Of a stretch of 64,000 bases of DNA, positions 41,170-49,574 are shown piece after piece; positions within the stretch are counted from its first letter, which is position 1; each line of letters begins with the position of its first letter. This stretch comes from Novosphingobium marinum (GTDB lineage: Bacteria; Pseudomonadota; Alphaproteobacteria; Sphingomonadales; Sphingomonadaceae): positions 620,001 to 684,000 of the forward strand of contig NZ_JACBZF010000001.1 in NCBI RefSeq assembly GCF_013408095.1, read 5' to 3'. Both the position numbers and the translations under genes were made by a program. The notes below the pieces were generated by a model. The model searched no databases. It was not told the origin of the DNA and saw nothing but the letters and a program-made list of their open reading frames with translations.

Positions 41170-42453
41170 GTGGGTGATGAAGCGAAGCTCTCAGTCGGAG
41201 GCAACGATTACGGCTACCCTGTCCTCAAGGGGAGCGTCGGCCCAGACGTGGTCGATATCCGCAAGCTTTACGGGCAAACCGGGATGTTCACGTTCGATCC
41301 CGGCTTCACTTCGACGGCGAGCTGCGAAAGCGCGCTGACCTATATCGACGGCGACGAGGGCGTTCTCCTTCACCGTGGCTATCCGATCGGGCAGCTCGCC
41401 GAAAATTCCAGTTTCATGGAAGTCAGCTACCTGCTCCTCAACGGCGAACTGCCGACCCGGAAGGAGTACGAGGAGTTCACCTGGACGATCAGCCGCCATA
41501 CGATGCTGCACGACCAGCTGCGCAACTTCTACCAGGGCTTCCGGCGCGATGCCCACCCGATGGCGATCATGTGCGGCGTTGTGGGGGCGCTTTCGGCCTT
41601 CTATCACGACAGCACCGACATTTCGGATCCCGAGCATCGTAAGATCAGCTCGCACCGGCTGCTTGCCAAGATGCCGACGATCGCGGCGATGGCTTACAAG
41701 TACGCGATCGGCCAGCCTTTCCTCTACCCGGACAATTCGCTCAGCTACACCGGGAATTTCATGCGGATGACCTTCGGCGTACCGGCCGAGGAGTACGACC
41801 TGCACCCCGCCGTCGAACGTGCGATGGACCGGATTTTCATCCTGCACGCCGACCACGAACAGAACGCTTCGACCTCGACCGTAAGGCTTGCAGGTTCGTC
41901 CGGCGCCAATCCCTTCGCGTGCATCGCGGCGGGCATTGCCTGCCTCTGGGGGCCCGCGCATGGCGGTGCGAACGAGGCCGCCCTCAACATGCTTCGCGAA
42001 ATCGGTACGCCGGACAAGATCCCGCATTATCTTGAGCGCGCCAAGAACAAGAACGATCCGTTCCGCCTGATGGGCTTCGGGCATCGCGTCTACAAAAACT
42101 ACGATCCGCGCGCGACGGTCATGCAGAAGACCGTGCGCGAGGTGTTCGATGCGCTGAAGGTCTCCGATCCCGTTTTCGAGGTCGCCCTGCGCCTCGAGGA
42201 ACTCGCTCTCAACGACGAGTATTTCATCGAGAAGAAGCTTTTCCCGAACGTCGACTTCTATTCCGGCGTCATTCTTTCGGCCATTGGTTTCCCGACCACC
42301 ATGTTCACGGCGCTCTTCGCACTCGCCCGGACCGTGGGCTGGGTGGCGCAGTGGAACGAGATGATTTCCGATCCCGGCCAGAAGATCGGACGTCCGCGCC
42401 AGCTCTACACGGGTCCGACGCAGCGCGATTACGTGCCGATCGAGAAGCGCTGA
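41170..42453 (+). CDS. gltA: Citrate synthase (type II)
   Basis: Condenses acetyl-CoA and oxaloacetate at the entry of the citric acid cycle. The 427-residue protein has the His-containing [12 protein letters not shown] and [13 protein letters not shown] segments and a late [11 protein letters not shown] that holds the catalytic Asp. The N-terminal extension, starting [20 protein letters not shown], marks the larger NADH-sensitive hexameric type of Gram-negative bacteria. It starts at GTG with TAGGAG upstream. Confidence 0.96.
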
Positions 42454-42657: not shown

Positions 42658-44052
42658 TCAGTCGGGGTCGGCAGGCAAGGTCAGCACGAAACGCGCCCCC
42701 TCGCCGGCCTCGCTCTCCACCTTTAGATCGCCGCCCATTGCTCGGGCCAGGCGACGCGAGATGTAGAGACCGAGGCCGGAACCGCCGTCCCCGCTACGAC
42801 CGAGCCGCTCGAATTTCTCGAAGACCCTCTCGCGTTCTTCTTCGTCGAGCCCCCTGCCCTCGTCGGCGACAATGGCGGCAACGCGCTCGCCACGATTTTC
42901 CAGACTGATCCTGACAGCGGATTCGGGCGGGCCATACCTTATGGCGTTACTCACGACATTCAGCAGAACCTGAAGCACGCGCCGGAATTCGGCGATGGCC
43001 GGAACACTGTCCTCCAGACCCGGTGCGATGAGCGCAATTTCGCGCTCCTTCGCCCGTACTCCGAGGATCCCGGCGGCCTGGCGAGCTACTTCCGCGAGAT
43101 CGATCCGGTCGGGTGCCGTCCGGAAATCGGCGGACTCGATGATCTCGAGATCCGAGAAGTCCTCCAGAAGTCCAAGGAGGTGCTGCCCGGCCGCGGCAAT
43201 GTCCGCCGCGTACTCGGCGTATGCATCGTCCAGCGGACCGGCCAGTCGTGTCCTGATCGTCTCCGCATTAGCGACGATCCTTGCGATGGGCTGACGCAGC
43301 ACCGGCGCCAGGTCGCTACCGATCAGTCGCATTCCGTTCGGGCGTTCAGGCTCTTGCACGGCGAGATCGCCCGCACGACGTTTCGGATGCTCGGGTGCGG
43401 GTTCGGGAGAGTTCAGCAGAAGCTCAAAGCCGGAAAGCGCTCCGTCATGCGCCTCGATAGGCACCAGCGTCGCGCGCCACGGTCGGGTCGAACCCGCAAC
43501 GGAACAGTCCGCCCCGTCGAGGAGCCGCCAATGCAGTGGCTGTCGGTGCGTACTGCCTTGGATCGTCACGAAGTCGGTCCATGGCCTGCCCGATCCTGCC
43601 AGCATCGCTTCGGTGAGGGGCTGGAGGTCCGGGCTCTGGCTCTCGACGGCCAGAACAAGCTGATCGGGATCGAGCCTTGCCGATAGGTCCGCCAGGTCGC
43701 GGTCTACCTGGATGCGCCGTCGATAGGTCTCGCGTTCGTCCTCGCGCGGCAGCGCGACCGCCTGCCAGTTGTGTAGGACGATCTCGCAGCCTTCTTCCTC
43801 GCCGCCCCGTGGTTCGACCTCGGCCCATGCCGATATCGCCTTTTCGCCGTCGTTGGCGGTGATCGTCCGCGCGAGTTTCAGGCCGTACCGCCGTGCCTTG
43901 CGCACCGTCTCGAGCAGCGCCGGGACCGCGATGGTGCCACCGACTTCTCCACCGCAGCGCGCCTGCAAGACGGCAATCGGCTTGTCGGCGCTGATGAGCC
44001 GGTCGTCGGCATCGCTTCGGGCTCGGGCCGACCCTGACCCGTCGGAGGCCAT
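42658..44052 (-). CDS. Histidine-kinase-like ATPase lacking the phospho-acceptor histidine
   Basis: A 464-residue soluble protein. Its C-terminal HATPase_c domain is complete: N-box LLNVVSNAIRYGP (from 363), G1 VADEGRGL, F-box FEKFER and G2 GGSGLGLYISRRL (423-435). The region aligning with the dimerisation helix reads DLAPVLRQPIARIVANAE, where kinases have SHELRTPL; Pro250-Val251 stand at the His-Glu position. It therefore cannot autophosphorylate in the usual way. The N-terminal half (residues about 20-240) looks like one or two PAS-like sensor folds. No membrane segment. It follows the helical gene upstream by 2 bases. It could be an ATP-dependent regulator or a decoy partner. Confidence 0.75.
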   Translation of the reverse strand: MASDGSGSARARSDADDRLISADKPIAVLQARCGGEVGGTIAVPALLETVRKARRYGLKLARTITANDGEKAISAWAEVEPRGGEEEGCEIVLHNWQAVALPREDERETYRRRIQVDRDLADLSARLDPDQLVLAVESQSPDLQPLTEAMLAGSGRPWTDFVTIQGSTHRQPLHWRLLDGADCSVAGSTRPWRATLVPIEAHDGALSGFELLLNSPEPAPEHPKRRAGDLAVQEPERPNGMRLIGSDLAPVLRQPIARIVANAETIRTRLAGPLDDAYAEYAADIAAAGQHLLGLLEDFSDLEIIESADFRTAPDRIDLAEVARQAAGILGVRAKEREIALIAPGLEDSVPAIAEFRRVLQVLLNVVSNAIRYGPPESAVRISLENRGERVAAIVADEGRGLDEEERERVFEKFERLGRSGDGGSGLGLYISRRLARAMGGDLKVESEAGEGARFVLTLPADPD

Positions 44053-44054
44053 TC

Positions 44055-45044
44055 CTACTCTCCCGGGTAGTAGTTGCCGAAAGACAGGATCGCCGCCGCC
44101 CGGTCGGGACCGAGCGAGCCGAAGCCTTCGGGAAGCGTGGCCTCGGGATGAAGCAGTACGAACTGCTCTTCGATCGCCGCAGGCTTCACGCCGGCGCAGC
44201 GGAGCGAAAGTGCGAGCCGGATACACTGGGATTCGTTGGTCGACAGAGCTACTGCATCGCGGTCCTGGCCAGCGCCCATGGCAAGTGCGGTCAGGAAGGT
44301 CGCGACCCCTGCGTGGCTTGCCGAAAGCGCCGCGATCGCTCCGCCTCCCATGCCGGATACGAGCCGCGATACGAGACCGAGGCGGGTCCGGCTTTCATCG
44401 AAACTGCCACGTATGCGTTGCTCGGCCGCTCGCGCTTTGGCCTCGCTATCGGAGGATGCCTCGGCGATGGTGCGCATCGCCACGATTGCTGCATGAAGCA
44501 GATCGCCTGGCAACTCGGACAACGGCAACCGCATTCGCCGCTGCGCCTGACAGAAACGGGCCTGCGCCGTCAGGAAGTTCATCGCGATCGTGGCGATACT
44601 TTCGTCGCGGGCCGCGATTAGGGCTTGCAAGAGCGGAGGCAGGACGGGATCGAGTCCGATCCGTGCCTGCAACCGCTCGGTGAGCTGCCATTCGAGCGCA
44701 AGACCGTGGACGTGCGTCAGGAACGCCGAATTCGCGATAATCGTATCACCGAGCGACGCGAGTTCTGCGGGATCGTGCTCGAACCGTTCCACCCCTTCGC
44801 CCTCGGACTTGAGGTTGTCGAGCAACTGGCTTGCCACGTCGGTCGTCATCCCGCGTACGCGCGCGATGATCTCGTCGCCGAAAAGAGAACTGTCGTCGTT
44901 GGCCAGCAGGTGACGCAGGATCGGCACCACCGTGCCGGCCATCGCGTCGCCCCGTGCGAGGTCGTGCCGGATCACGGCCTCGAGCGAATCCGCATCGTTT
45001 CTGGTGACAACTGCGTCGATCATGCCATCGCCATAACGCGCCAT
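44055..45044 (-). CDS. Helical protein of unknown function (possibly DUF2336-like)
   Basis: A 329-residue Ala/Leu-rich, predominantly helical protein with no signal peptide. Segments such as AELASLGDTIIANSAFLTHVH, MNFLTAQARFCQAQRRMRLP and ESQCIRLALSLRCAGVKPAA suggest stacked helical repeats. I think DUF2336, an alphaproteobacterial family often near signalling genes, is possible but I cannot establish it. It lies 2 bases downstream of the membrane nucleotidyltransferase-like gene and 2 bases upstream of the pseudo-kinase, so the three are co-transcribed. The first ATG sits within TTAACCATGG. Confidence 0.6.
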   Translation of the reverse strand: MARYGDGMIDAVVTRNDADSLEAVIRHDLARGDAMAGTVVPILRHLLANDDSSLFGDEIIARVRGMTTDVASQLLDNLKSEGEGVERFEHDPAELASLGDTIIANSAFLTHVHGLALEWQLTERLQARIGLDPVLPPLLQALIAARDESIATIAMNFLTAQARFCQAQRRMRLPLSELPGDLLHAAIVAMRTIAEASSDSEAKARAAEQRIRGSFDESRTRLGLVSRLVSGMGGGAIAALSASHAGVATFLTALAMGAGQDRDAVALSTNESQCIRLALSLRCAGVKPAAIEEQFVLLHPEATLPEGFGSLGPDRAAAILSFGNYYPGE

Positions 45045-45046
45045 GG

Positions 45047-46255
45047 TTAAGCTGTCGTTAGCCGCGGCCTTGCCCCGATTGATGCCAGCGCGGCGATCAG
45101 AAACAGTACGGAGAGGATTTCAACGCACGGCAAAACGATGCCGAATGCGTGCGCTGCAACGAGGACAAGGCACAGCACTGCCCTGTCCTCCATCCAGCCT
45201 CGTCCGCCATGACCGATGATCTTGGGTACGATCCGCATCAGGAGCAGGAGTGCGATTGGCGGGAAGGCCGGTCCGAACAGCCCCGGCCACTCGGTCATTC
45301 CCGATGCGGTGATGACGATGAAGAGTATTTCGAGGTCCACGAGGCAACCGGCCATCAGGCTGGCGATCGGGGTCCAGTTGCGTCCCGGATGCGTTGCTTC
45401 CTCCGCACCGACGAGCATGAATGCCGCATGATGGAGAATCCATGCAAAAGCGGCGACGATCAGGGCAAGCCAGACCAGCCCGAACCAGATAGAGAACGCA
45501 CCGATCAACAGCGCCGCCACGAATGCAGCGAGCGATATCCTGCTTCCCGAGCCAGCATGCAGCAGCGAAGGGCCGAAGGCCATCACCGCATTGCGCGCCA
45601 ACCAGCGACTAGGTTCGCCGCCACTTGAATTGCCAAGCTGGAGGCGCAGCCATTCGGGTTCGAGAGCTTGCGCTTCGGTTTCCGAACTCACCAGCTTCCA
45701 GATTGTGCCGATCTGGTCCTCCACAGCGAGCTTCCGCCTGGCGATACCGCTCTGCAACGCGATCCGGGTCAGACCGGAGACGGCATCGTAGTCGGCCGGT
45801 AGCTCTCGCAATCGCGTGGCAAGCCTGCCCGGAACGTGCACGATCCCTGCCGCTGCGGCCTCCAGATCGAGACGTTCGAAACCTTTGCTCGCGGCATCGG
45901 CGTGCAGGACATACACCGCGAAGCCTTGTTCCCGGAGCGAAGTGGGAACGCCCGGTCCGACAAACAGGCCGTCTGCGAGCGCGATCATCTCGTCGTTGTC
46001 GGAAATGCCCGCCGCTGCTTCCTGAACATTCGCGACGACCTCCAAGCGCGCTCCGGATCCTTCCGCCATCTTCTGAAGCTCGGTGGTCCTGCCACCGATC
46101 CCGGCGCCCACGCAGATGATGCGCTGGCATTCCAGTTTCAGGGCAAGCGCTACCTGATGCCGCGCGATCGTCTGGCCACCGATGCGCAGGAAGGCGCGCC
46201 GTTCGCCGTCACCTGCACCGGCAGGCTCGATCATGGTCAAAAGCGCGATGCGCAA
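45047..46255 (-). CDS. Degenerate nucleotidyltransferase-like protein fused to a membrane domain
   Basis: A 402-residue fusion. The N-terminal part (about 1-110) looks like a nucleotidyltransferase Rossmann fold: RIALLTMIEPAGAG, LRIGGQTIARHQVALALKLE, CQRIICVGAG. The GxGTRxxP nucleotide loop of active enzymes is not present. The C-terminal half (about 235-395) has five or six hydrophobic helices. I looked for the CDP-alcohol phosphotransferase motif DGxxAR and did not find it. TTG 46255 is preferred because AGAGGAG lies 5-6 bases before it; an ATG follows at codon 8. It is 67 bases downstream of the Hpt-like gene. Function unknown; loss of catalytic residues suggests a non-enzymatic role. Confidence 0.62.
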   Translation of the reverse strand: MRIALLTMIEPAGAGDGERRAFLRIGGQTIARHQVALALKLECQRIICVGAGIGGRTTELQKMAEGSGARLEVVANVQEAAAGISDNDEMIALADGLFVGPGVPTSLREQGFAVYVLHADAASKGFERLDLEAAAAGIVHVPGRLATRLRELPADYDAVSGLTRIALQSGIARRKLAVEDQIGTIWKLVSSETEAQALEPEWLRLQLGNSSGGEPSRWLARNAVMAFGPSLLHAGSGSRISLAAFVAALLIGAFSIWFGLVWLALIVAAFAWILHHAAFMLVGAEEATHPGRNWTPIASLMAGCLVDLEILFIVITASGMTEWPGLFGPAFPPIALLLLMRIVPKIIGHGGRGWMEDRAVLCLVLVAAHAFGIVLPCVEILSVLFLIAALASIGARPRLTTA

Positions 46256-46322
46256 GCGGGCTCCTCTTGCAATCGGAGCGCCATGATAGGTTCAATCGCC
46301 GCGCTCGCCAAGCGAGCCTGTC

Positions 46323-46619
46323 TCAGGAGAAGCGGGCCAGATACTCGTTCAGTTTGCGCAGGACAGTCGGTTCGCCCGGAGCAGCCTCGACCGCCTCGTC
46401 GGCAAGAGTGATGAGCGGCTCGGCATGAAAGCTGCTGGCCAGCCCCTTGAGCCGCATGGCTGCGACCTGCCAGTTGCCATCGCATCGCGACCTCTCGAGC
46501 AGGTCGACTTGCCTGCCGGCGCTTTCGAGAAACGCCGCGCGCAATTCGGCGACGAGCACGGCATCGTCGCCGGCTGCCGCCGCCAGGGTCGCATCGAGGT
46601 CGCCGGATTCGTAGGCCAT
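46323..46619 (-). CDS. Hpt-domain-like protein with Met at the phosphorylation site
   Basis: A 98-residue four-helix protein of the Hpt type. In active Hpt domains the second helix carries A-H-x-L-K-G and the His is phosphorylated. Here it reads AAMRLKGLASSF, so Met55 replaces it while Leu57, Lys58 and Gly59 are kept. The following FHAEPL keeps the conserved short-helix turn (with His65, a different position). It can therefore bind kinase or response-regulator surfaces but not carry phosphate at the usual site. It leads a minus-strand run toward the pseudo-kinase and is divergent from the coiled-coil gene across a CtrA-like box. Confidence 0.78.
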   Translation of the reverse strand: MAYESGDLDATLAAAAGDDAVLVAELRAAFLESAGRQVDLLERSRCDGNWQVAAMRLKGLASSFHAEPLITLADEAVEAAPGEPTVLRKLNEYLARFS

Positions 46620-46643
46620 GTGACCCGCTTACGCGGCAACTGG

Positions 46644-46658
46644 TTAAATCGGGGTTTA
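46644..46658. promoter_or_regulatory. CtrA-like box in the Hpt-like / coiled-coil divergent promoter
   Basis: TTAA, seven bases (ATCGGGG), TTTA: one mismatch from TTAA-N7-TTAA. It lies in the 69-base gap between the Hpt-like gene (minus) and the large coiled-coil gene (plus), so it could serve both. CtrA binding is an inference from the motif. Confidence 0.5.
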
Positions 46659-46688
46659 TTGCGTTTGCGGTCATGGTATTGTTGGCAA

Positions 46689-49574
46689 ATGGTTGGGGGA
46701 TCACGGATCATCGCTTTCGGTGCGGGTGGCGAAGAAGCCGGGCGCGACGAATTCCTGCTCACTGAAGAGGTTGCGGAGGCGGAAAGCCAACCCGACCCTG
46801 ACGATGCATTGCAGGAGAGTTACGTCAGCTTCGATGACGATGGAGAGAGCGCAGAGGAGGTCGGGCGGCCTGACTGGCTATTCCCGTCGATCGCTGTCGG
46901 GCTGGCTCTCGCATGGACCGCTTTCTATTTCTGGGCTCGCTCCGCCGATATTGCTTCGATGGTACCGGGGGACTGGGCTTCCGTGATTTCCGAGTGGGCG
47001 GTTCCGGTTCTGTTGATCGGGGTCGTCTGGCTTATTGCGATGCGTAACAGTCGTCGGGAGGCAACGCGCTTCGGCGACGCCGCACGAGTGCTTTCCGACG
47101 AATCGATGCGCCTCGAAGAGCGGCTCGTCGCGGTGAACCGCGAACTGAGCCTCGCCCGGGAATTCATCGCGTCCCAATCGCGCGACCTGGAGATGCTGGG
47201 CCGTGTGGCGGTCGAACGCCTGTCCACGAACGCGGACCGGTTGCAAAGCCTCATCCGCGACAATGGCGACCGCGTGGAAACCATCGGCACGGTCAGCGAG
47301 GCCGCACTCGACAACATGGAGAAGTTGCGAGGCCAGTTGCCTGTCATCGCCAACTCGGCGAAGGACGTAACGAACAATATCGGAAATGCCGGTCGGACGG
47401 CGCACGGCCAGCTCGAGGAAATGCTCGAAGGCTTTCGCCGGCTCAACGAGTTCGGCGAGGCCAGCGAGCGGCAGGTCGAAAAGCTGCGCACCGTTTTCGG
47501 AGATGTGGTCGGCGAGTTCACAAGGCAATGCGACCAGATTGGCGATATGGCCGACTCCCGCTTCGCATCGCTGGCAGAACGCGGGCTAGACTTTCGGAAC
47601 AGCCTCGACGCGCACGAGGCCGAAGCGCTTGCGGCAATCCGGGAACGTGCGACTGCGCTGGCCGAAGAACTCGATGCCACACGCGCCATGCTCGACGATC
47701 AGGAAGGCGAGAGCCTGAAGTCGCTCCGAGCCCGCCTTTCAACCCTGCGCGACGAGGGCGGCACGATCGCCCGCTCGATCCGCGAAAGCGAGGAACGAGC
47801 CGCTCAAAACTGGCGCGATGCCATCGCGATCATCGAGGAAAGCGCCGCTTCGGCCGCGGGCCTGATCGAAGCGAGAAGCGCGGCCGCGATAGAAGATGCG
47901 AAGGAGAGGTTCGCGGCACTCATCGATCAGTCCGAACGCGCCGGAGCCCGGATCGAGGAACGAAACCGGTTTTTCCGTGACCAGATCGAGGAAATCCGCG
48001 TCGAGATCGAGGAAGGGCACGGCCAAAGCGTGGATGCCATTGCCGAACGGATCGAGGGCCTGCGCGACAGGCTGGCCGAAGCAAGCCTCAGCTTTGTCGG
48101 AGATATCGAAACGCGCCGTTCTGAAGCGGAAGCGGCCGGCCGGGAGATGCTGTCGCGTCTCGACGATCGCCTGCGCATTTTCGACGAGGGCGTCGCGGCC
48201 CGAAGCCAGCGCTTTGGCGACGAACTCGGCACCCGGTTCGAAAGGCTCGAGACCGACGATGCCGAAGCCGCCTTGCGCCTCGAGGCCAAGCTTGCGGCCA
48301 TCGATGAAGAGTTGGCCGAACGTCGCACTGCCCAGGAGCGGCATGTCACGGCCCTTACGGCCCATGCCGAGGCAATGGCGGCTCAGCTCGAAGCATACGA
48401 AGCGCGAATGGCCGAAATCGCTACGCAGGGCGGTCATATCGAGACGCGAATGGCGGCAAGCGTCGACACATTGTCGCAGAACCTTGCTGCCGCGCGCGAT
48501 GCACTGAACGGTACCGAAGCTCAGGTCGGCGGCCTGAACGAGGCCAGTGTCCGGCTTCTGGAACTGATCGAGGCGAGCGCGGAACACGCAAACACTCGTA
48601 TCCCGGCCGTCCTGTCCGAGAGCGAGGACACGCTCGCGTCGATGGAGGACCGCGTCACCAGGATACGCGAGACGGTGCAGGCGGCGCAAGCTGGCGGCGA
48701 TGCCCTGTCGAGTGCACTCGGCACTGCGGATAACAATCTCGGTAAGATTGCAGGCGAGCTGGACAGAATGCAGGCCCTGCTCGGCTCGCAGGATGATGAG
48801 CAACAGGCGCGCCTCGCAGCGCTGCGCGAGCGCGTCTCGGAAATCGAAGCGATCTATGTGCGTCTCGCCGAACGGGCGGACGGCGAACTGGCCCAAGCGA
48901 TCGAGCGGCTTGCCAGCTCGGCCCGCGATGCTGTCTCCGCCATCGGCGAAGAAGGACCTGCAAGGATTTCCGAACTCGCAGCCCGGCTCGGGGAGGAAAG
49001 CGGCGAAGCGCTGGAGAGGGTTGTCCGGACCAAGGCGGCGGAAGCGACGGGGCAACTCGAACAGGCTGCCTCCCATGCGTCCGGTGTCAGTCGCGAAGCG
49101 GCGATCCAGCTTCGCGACCAGCTCGCCAAAGTGGATGAACTCGTCGGCAACCTCGAGCGCCGGGTGGCGCATGCGCGGGAGCGCGCGGAGGAGCAGGTCG
49201 ACAACGATTTCACACGGCGCGTTGCACTCATCACCGAATCGCTCAATTCGAATGCCATCGACATTGCCAAAGCCCTGTCCACCGACGTCTCCGATATGGC
49301 CTGGTCGGCTTACCTGAGAGGGGATCGCGGCATTTTCACCCGGCGTGCCGTTGCCCTCCTCGAGCCGAGCGAAACGAAGGCCATCGTGCAGATTTACGAG
49401 CGCGACGATGAATTCCGCGAGCATGTCAGCCGCTACATTCACGACTTCGAAGCTATATTGCGTCAGGTCCTGTCGACGAGGGACGGCCACGCGCTGGGCG
49501 TCACCTTGCTTTCGTCGGACATGGGAAAGCTCTACGTCGCACTTGCGCAGGCGATCGAGAGATTGCGGAATTGA
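46689..49574 (+). CDS. Inner-membrane-anchored long coiled-coil protein (TipN-like architecture)
   Basis: A 961-residue protein. The N-terminal 60 residues are acidic. Two transmembrane helices follow (about 65-82 and 99-117). Then roughly 750 residues of Glu/Arg/Ala-rich heptad sequence form a coiled coil, and about 90 conserved globular residues close it (SAYLRGDRGIFTRRAVALLE, FREHVSRYIHDFEAILRQV, LLSSDMGKLYVALAQAIERL). Two N-terminal helices plus a long cytoplasmic coil is the layout of Caulobacter TipN, a cell-polarity landmark. I infer a similar role but cannot show homology. ATG 46689 is chosen because upstream codons overlap the divergent promoter. Its stop is 5 bases from the convergent DUF1467 gene. 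Confidence 0.7.
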   Translation: MVGGSRIIAFGAGGEEAGRDEFLLTEEVAEAESQPDPDDALQESYVSFDDDGESAEEVGRPDWLFPSIAVGLALAWTAFYFWARSADIASMVPGDWASVISEWAVPVLLIGVVWLIAMRNSRREATRFGDAARVLSDESMRLEERLVAVNRELSLAREFIASQSRDLEMLGRVAVERLSTNADRLQSLIRDNGDRVETIGTVSEAALDNMEKLRGQLPVIANSAKDVTNNIGNAGRTAHGQLEEMLEGFRRLNEFGEASERQVEKLRTVFGDVVGEFTRQCDQIGDMADSRFASLAERGLDFRNSLDAHEAEALAAIRERATALAEELDATRAMLDDQEGESLKSLRARLSTLRDEGGTIARSIRESEERAAQNWRDAIAIIEESAASAAGLIEARSAAAIEDAKERFAALIDQSERAGARIEERNRFFRDQIEEIRVEIEEGHGQSVDAIAERIEGLRDRLAEASLSFVGDIETRRSEAEAAGREMLSRLDDRLRIFDEGVAARSQRFGDELGTRFERLETDDAEAALRLEAKLAAIDEELAERRTAQERHVTALTAHAEAMAAQLEAYEARMAEIATQGGHIETRMAASVDTLSQNLAAARDALNGTEAQVGGLNEASVRLLELIEASAEHANTRIPAVLSESEDTLASMEDRVTRIRETVQAAQAGGDALSSALGTADNNLGKIAGELDRMQALLGSQDDEQQARLAALRERVSEIEAIYVRLAERADGELAQAIERLASSARDAVSAIGEEGPARISELAARLGEESGEALERVVRTKAAEATGQLEQAASHASGVSREAAIQLRDQLAKVDELVGNLERRVAHARERAEEQVDNDFTRRVALITESLNSNAIDIAKALSTDVSDMAWSAYLRGDRGIFTRRAVALLEPSETKAIVQIYERDDEFREHVSRYIHDFEAILRQVLSTRDGHALGVTLLSSDMGKLYVALAQAIERLRN

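Follow-up and report, generated by a model that had tools for sequence, protein, structure and literature searches.

Single pseudokinases are already known, among them DivL, which carries a tyrosine at its phospho-acceptor site, and the plant pseudo-Hpt AHP6 provides a precedent for an Hpt protein without its histidine. The Caulobacter pole landmark TipN combines an N-terminal membrane part with a long coiled coil. DivL has been described as a pseudokinase which binds CckA and DivK (PMC7200025). For the Caulobacter hybrid kinase CCNA_03265, the authors suggest that a nearby histidine or a heterodimer is employed, and HmrB, which lacks the HxxKG motif, is still proposed to be an atypical Hpt (both PMC11481889). 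SpbR is listed among Caulobacter developmental regulators in PMC12700997. Here we analyse an alphaproteobacterial locus in which kinase-like and Hpt-like proteins without their phospho-acceptor histidines are encoded next to a membrane-anchored coiled-coil protein. The locus is real, conserved and, as far as our literature search reaches, undescribed: nothing was recognised as this locus in the literature covered, in which subscription journals are sparsely represented.

The window, a stretch of 64,000 nucleotides from Novosphingobium marinum, contains five genes, A to E: the minus strand carries D, C, B and A in succession, and E is encoded divergently from them on the plus strand (Table 1). 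According to the ORF coordinates, D and C are separated by 67 bases, and C and B as well as B and A by 2 bases; the coordinates and spacing given in an earlier sequence-only reading of this DNA proved exact on recheck. The flanks look ordinary: beyond A lie genes for glutamyl-tRNA synthetase and citrate synthase, beyond E one for an RNase J-like protein (all by reading), and a DUF1467 protein (Pfam match) adjoins E. The citrate synthase gene (window 41170-42453) is convergent to A, possibly by coincidence; the Caulobacter citrate synthase CitA has been reported to control the cell cycle independently of its enzymatic activity (PMC7083601). To assess distribution, a fixed set of 147 genomes from the order was used, comprising 64 from the family of the window, Sphingomonadaceae in the wide GTDB sense (f1), and 83 from other families (f2-f8).

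Table 1. Positions of the genes and sites of the A-E locus within the window
Feature	Position	Strand	Description
A	42658-44052	minus	464 aa from ATG at 44052; pseudo-histidine kinase, ATP-binding boxes intact
B	44055-45044	minus	helical protein, probably divergent member of the DUF2336/SpbR line
C	45047-46255	minus	NTase-like domain and CDP-alcohol phosphatidyltransferase-type membrane domain, DxxDGxxAR lost
D	46323-46619	minus	Hpt-fold protein without phospho-acceptor His
E	46689-49574	plus	961 aa from ATG at 46689; membrane-anchored coiled-coil protein
D-E gap	46620-46688	none	69-base divergent promoter region
CtrA-like box TTAA-N7-TTTA	46644-46658	plus	one mismatch vs TTAA-N7-TTAA
Met55 codon of D	46455-46457	minus	replaces Hpt His
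Pro250 codon of A	43303-43305	minus	replaces kinase His

The product of gene A contains a full HATPase domain (Pfam, 95 bits) with the N, G1 and G2 boxes present and a sub-threshold HisKA match (26.4 bits vs the cut-off of 26.9), and Pro250 occupies the position of the phospho-acceptor histidine in its H-box. The kinase histidine is found in none of the 128 distinct A proteins aligned from 133 loci, where the site is filled by Pro (109), Arg (6), Glu (3), Ala, Gln or Gly (two each) and Val, Asp, Thr or Ser (one each). The ATP boxes are kept in 127-128 of the 128 at every position counted, and this conservation of all the boxes suggests that some ATP-dependent activity may remain in A. The second histidine of the kinase helix is retained in 112 of these proteins and a histidine stands four residues before the site in 5. 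In this alignment, as in those of D and C, each locus is represented by its single best match at E 1e-3 or better, identical sequences are counted once and loci cut by contig ends contribute no row.

The Hpt histidine, at the position of which D has Met55, is likewise missing from all 116 distinct D proteins (120 loci), which carry Met (55), Leu (26), Gln (16), Glu (4), Trp (4), Arg (3), Thr, Gly or Ala (two each) and Asp or Ser (one each); a histidine lies within three residues of the site in 7. Both A and D could be read in 112 loci, and no histidine occupies either site in any of them. Ten residues past the lost one, a histidine at D position 65 (codon at window 46425-46427) is present in 97 of the 116 relatives, and the seven His-bearing Hpts counted have Gly there; in the AF2 model His65 falls just beyond the end of the helix (residues 47-63). 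The model (pLDDT 91) is a four-helix bundle, and in the structure comparison VIA lists Hpt proteins in its first nine rows (Z 9.9-11.6, rmsd 2.2-2.6, 83-98 aligned), followed by a designed four-helix bundle at Z 9.8. The top Foldseek matches are also Hpt, at E 0.28 or worse, and a PDB sequence search with D returned chance-like matches only. The bundle is clear, and the assignment of D as an Hpt depends more on its profile match to a set of His-containing Hpts (probability 97.1, E 6.8e-11).

The AF2 model of C (pLDDT 90.8) has as its top Foldseek match the bifunctional IPCT-DIPPS enzyme 4mnd (E 1.5e-8, TMq 0.66, rmsd 5.1 over 452 columns), which is also first in the sequence profile search (E 1.9e-4). 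DxxDGxxAR, the first half of the CDP-alcohol transferase motif, occurs in none of the 132 distinct C proteins (137 loci). Among 11 more distant C relatives read, nine keep LDGxDGKLAR, including one from a genome of the same genus (L279), and those of G040 and G059 lack it; the full motif with its second half (G...D...D) was matched by none of the 11. Pfam recognises a CDP-alcohol transferase in all three of the scanned relatives with LDGxDGKLAR and in neither of the two without. From the 4mnd-like fold and the motif-bearing relatives, C probably descends from a lipid-type enzyme; since its NTase-like domain is without an obvious signature already in the distant relatives, this is not counted as a loss in C. 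Loci L273-L281, and not L271 or L272, encode fusion enzymes related to C, composed of an NTase-like and a CDP-alcohol transferase part. The histidine losses that the sequence-only reading had noticed in the single genome are therefore family-wide, with the His at 0/128 in A and 0/116 in D, as is the loss of the C motif (0/132), which argues against local decay.

The nearest relative of A elsewhere is a PAS kinase with its histidine intact, in an H-box of the form MSHELRTPL or MSHELKTPL, in all 11 cases read (10 from f2-f8 and one, from genome G040, from f1). With the A model they reach 181-227 bits, vs at most 88 for the other eight kinases read from this genome, and their profile aligns with A over 444 columns (E 5e-58), although other kinases would align over the core too. 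The A model (E 1e-50) matches 127 of the 147 genomes: 59 in f1, namely 58 with A and G040 with the canonical kinase, and 68 of the 83 in the other families, there over the kinase core only; its matches in G123, G140 and G146 are partial. No sampled genome matches both A and a canonical kinase at E 1e-50. In a kinase tree the two are grouped (100/93) apart from seven of the eight other kinases of this genome; however, only 10 of the 37 inner branches are well supported, A forms one clade at 50/96 and a long row (L254) falls inside the group, so that the tree supports but does not prove orthology. The DivL structure 4q20 is one among many kinase matches of A. Identity of A with DivL itself was considered and judged unlikely, since this genome has a separate gene with tyrosine in the H-box: L252 (G000:C1:903500-907500) is kinase-like, DivL-like, and reads NMSYELRTPL at this site.

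Directly upstream of the His-bearing kinase, in 11 of 11 cases, lies an ORF matching a DUF2336 model, which was built from seven of these 11 proteins and scores the other four at 236-333 bits; the one upstream protein scanned with Pfam is DUF2336 (214 bits), and the other-family DUF2336 proteins match NCBIfam SpbR in 7/7 cases, below the curated cut-off. B occupies the same place before the kinase gene and matches the DUF2336 set in profile comparison (probability 83.6, E 8.2e-6). Neither Pfam nor NCBIfam puts a name to the B, D or E protein of the window, direct scans of B with both gave no DUF2336 or SpbR match above the curated cut-off, and a search of this genome with PF10098 found nothing at E 1e-3. 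Among 21 more divergent loci of the family, 12 have an ORF between C and A that reaches at least 25 bits with the DUF2336 model, with scores of 85-125 bits in L099, L199, L230, L233 and L234; six of the 21 have no matching ORF there, and in two of these A directly follows C. B therefore probably belongs to the DUF2336/SpbR line as a divergent member, and in some genera it has been lost or has diverged very far.

Relatives of D were sought in the E loci without a nearby A, 17 of which were read (14 from f2-f8, and G040, G020 and G182 from f1). An Hpt with its histidine lies near E on the opposite strand in eight of the 14 other-family loci and in G040. These nine were chosen by a match to the D model (weak in L185 and L189) and by eye; the phospho-acceptor histidine is present in all nine as picked and aligned, and Pfam confirms the Hpt in the two scanned (L181 and L195). 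A different Hpt-like protein, with an HDM[KR]G motif, follows the receiver in L187, L191 and L192 (in L191 below the Pfam cut-off), no Hpt was identified in the E locus of L183 or L193, and G020 and G182 have neither Hpt nor receiver beside E. The D model itself matches 51 of the 147 genomes, 50 in f1 (with a His-bearing protein in G040, a weak and unlinked match in G157 and a partial one in G135) and only 1 of the 83 others, so that the link between D and Hpt depends on profile comparison and place. D probably derives from the bacterial Hpt that accompanies E in other families.

A receiver is encoded in the E locus of 12 of the 14 other-family loci and of G040; in L188 it is far from E, and L194 ends at a contig edge. 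At an E value better than 1e-70, the receiver is found in 68 of 83 genomes of f2-f8 vs one of 64 in f1, again G040. With the CheY phosphorylated-Asp motif, which we take as the reference for placing the site, the phospho-acceptor Asp of the receiver near E is replaced by Asn in eight of the ten aligned from other families and in G040, that is, 9 of 11 (Asn in the receivers of L181-L183, L185-L187, L189, L191 and L195; L192 and L193 keep Asp). The aligned receivers retain the acidic pair and the Lys. Given Asn in most copies, part of the set probably stopped phosphotransfer before the losses in f1. Beyond the order, no class-wide link of E and receiver was seen: among the matches listed, compared by eye, only G203 has both within about 6 kb. 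A small protein with a PGGKLPLFD motif is encoded between E and the Hpt or receiver in L183, L184, L185, L186, L188 and L190, and an ORF between Hpt and receiver (L190:4300-4839) is phosphatase-like, with an LVRHAEK motif, and SixA-like by eye. The DUF2336-kinase pair is absent from the other-family E loci read. Relatives with intact histidines, which the sequence-only reading had regarded as a sign of local decay, do therefore exist, but their occurrence in other families and in G040 points rather to an active ancestor-type state.

E has a hydrophobic segment at residues 96-118 and, by eye, a second candidate near 63-83, below the cut-off used. Its C-terminal region, from about residue 800, is highly conserved. 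Residues about 800-961, which have no Pfam name, recur in other Alphaproteobacteria, and the E model matches 75 of 289 genomes of the class, mostly over this C-terminal part and frequently within ORFs 700-2700 aa long. In L196 and L197, small ORFs next to E resemble the antisense of the citrate synthase gene mentioned above, which may be coincidence. The gap between D and E measures about 70 bases in most of 60 relatives, and the CtrA-like box that had been noticed in this shared promoter region is present and conserved: of 121 D-E gaps, 83 hold TTAA-N7-TTAA with no more than one mismatch, vs about 2 expected from mononucleotide shuffles, the 121 including duplicates and perhaps a few gaps from other families. 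From the known CtrA consensus, the conserved box is a predicted CtrA site. The 11 gaps read beside E in other families and G040, mostly longer, show no clear CtrA box, their best TTAA match having 1-3 mismatches.

Two arrangements can thus be set against each other. In the other families, DUF2336 and the His kinase are encoded at one place, and the receiver, often with a His-bearing Hpt, divergently from E elsewhere; in f1, kinase and Hpt are without their histidines, the receiver gene is gone, a motif-less membrane protein resembling lipid enzymes has been added, and the genes are mostly clustered. Judging from their kind and gene order, kinase, Hpt and receiver may once have formed one relay. 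As the acceptor residues are lost and the parts are nevertheless kept under selection beside a scaffold gene, their probable mode of action is binding and not chemistry, and a binding-only mode would be a natural reading for the A-E set. We put at about 0.6 the probability that the locus is what remains of a His-Asp set, now a binding-only complex around a membrane coiled-coil scaffold. In such a complex, E would be the landmark in the membrane; A could alter its conformation in response to ATP or to signals received by its N-terminal part, docking partners such as receivers without phosphorylating them, like the pseudokinase DivL; D would take up the Hpt-binding surfaces; B and C might tether the complex; and expression would be timed by CtrA. 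A role in cell polarity, as the sequence-only reading proposed, and kinship of E with TipN, suggested by architecture, remain putative.

A more far-reaching reading, which we offer tentatively and at somewhat below even odds as a whole, proposes an order of losses. The relay would have been dismantled stepwise, with the receiver Asp lost first in most of the other-family copies read; the histidines of kinase and Hpt would have followed, the receiver gene disappeared in one family and a dead lipid enzyme been recruited. The product would be a catalytically dead cell-pole complex under CtrA which signals only by ATP-gated or competitive binding.

The rival which survives best after these, although we consider it unlikely, holds that A is still an enzyme which binds ATP and phosphorylates a partner, on the histidine of a mixed-dimer kinase or on another residue, and that D is phosphorylated elsewhere, for instance at His65. 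The near-complete retention of the N, G1 and G2 boxes speaks for it, as do the frequency of His65 in D and of the second kinase-helix histidine in A, and Caulobacter supplies precedents in CCNA_03265, with its suggested nearby histidine or heterodimer, and in HmrB (PMC11481889); if an Hpt without HxxKG may still work, this counts against a binding-only D. However, not one of the 128 A and 116 D proteins has the site histidine, His65 is missing from 19 of the 116 and lies just past the helix end in the model, and the receiver gene is gone.

A slightly less probable alternative, also unlikely, is that D-E and C-B-A are mere neighbours without a shared function. E is present in 129 of the 147 genomes and in all 64 of f1, with or without A (five f1 genomes have E but no A at E 1e-50: G020, G182, G157, G180 and G053); C is matched in 72 genomes (61 in f1) and B in 35 (34 in f1). 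In 45 of the 58 genomes, no more than about 10 kb separates E from A; in 13 the two lie apart, by more than 100 kb on one contig in nine and on different contigs in four. Of these 13, 11 still have D next to E, and all 13 have C next to A; one genome, G102, was read at both of its places (L198 and L199). D-E and C-B-A are two modules, and the separations, like the lack of a DUF2336-kinase pair in the other-family E loci read, favour mere neighbourhood. Against it stand the frequent proximity of E and A, the loss of the histidines of both A and D in the same family, and a tendency of D and A to co-occur: of the 64 genomes of f1, 47 have both, one D alone, 11 A alone and five neither (Fisher p 0.003, kinship uncorrected; G040 and G157 counted as without D, and G040 as without A). 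Of 114 loci with 4 kb or more beside E, 103 show exactly the order A<B<C<D<E>, a share which is biased upwards since a locus entered the set through a match to B, C or E, with duplicates kept, and as many as 80 represent the closest of at least 579; of the other 11, eight lack D, one lacks C, one has C and D only and one C only. The idea of a five-gene set is accordingly borne out insofar as the genes tend to occur together, but not as an indivisible unit, in view of the split modules, the loci without D and the genera in which B is lost or very divergent.

Finally, the view that the genes are relics on their way out, in favour of which one could cite the lineages without B or D and the five f1 genomes besides G040 without A, is highly improbable, and local decay of A and D was rejected on Ka/Ks, since this ratio is 0.04-0.15 for D in all 11 pairs and for A in 10 of 11 (chosen, mutually non-independent pairs), far below 1, both genes are conserved across genera and the gene order is mostly kept. 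In the most distant pair (L156 and L152), the ratio is 0.31 for A, 0.43 for E, 0.42 for C and 0.63 for B; in the other ten pairs it is 0.05-0.28 for E, 0.06-0.22 for C and 0.08-0.29 for B.

A pseudo-kinase and a pseudo-Hpt that are linked, and whose relatives in neighbouring families still bear the histidine, constitute a natural before-and-after series. With it, the role left to a two-component interface after the end of phosphate transfer becomes testable, as does the rewiring of polarity networks. For work on polarity and the cell cycle in Novosphingobium, Erythrobacter and their relatives, the analysis also points to genes that are widely conserved but uncharacterised. Compared with known systems, E shares with TipN the plan of a membrane part and a coiled coil, a likeness of architecture only. 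D has the four-helix bundle of ShpA and HptB but differs from them in having no site His in 116/116. C has the two-part architecture and the fold of the IPCT-DIPPS enzyme 4mnd, from which its relatives differ by the absence of DxxDGxxAR in 132/132. B shares with DUF2336/SpbR its place before the kinase and a profile match, although B itself goes unrecognised by Pfam and NCBIfam. CCNA_03265, likened to A by description, also has a kinase domain without the conserved histidine but, unlike A, is a hybrid with a receiver that keeps its Asp (PMC11481889). DivL is alphaproteobacterial and, like A, has a kinase fold without the phospho-acceptor histidine, and it acts by binding (PMC7200025). Unlike DivL with its Tyr, A has Pro or another residue at the site and is nearest to the kinase adjoining DUF2336; by analogy, DivL may nonetheless serve as the nearest working model for A.
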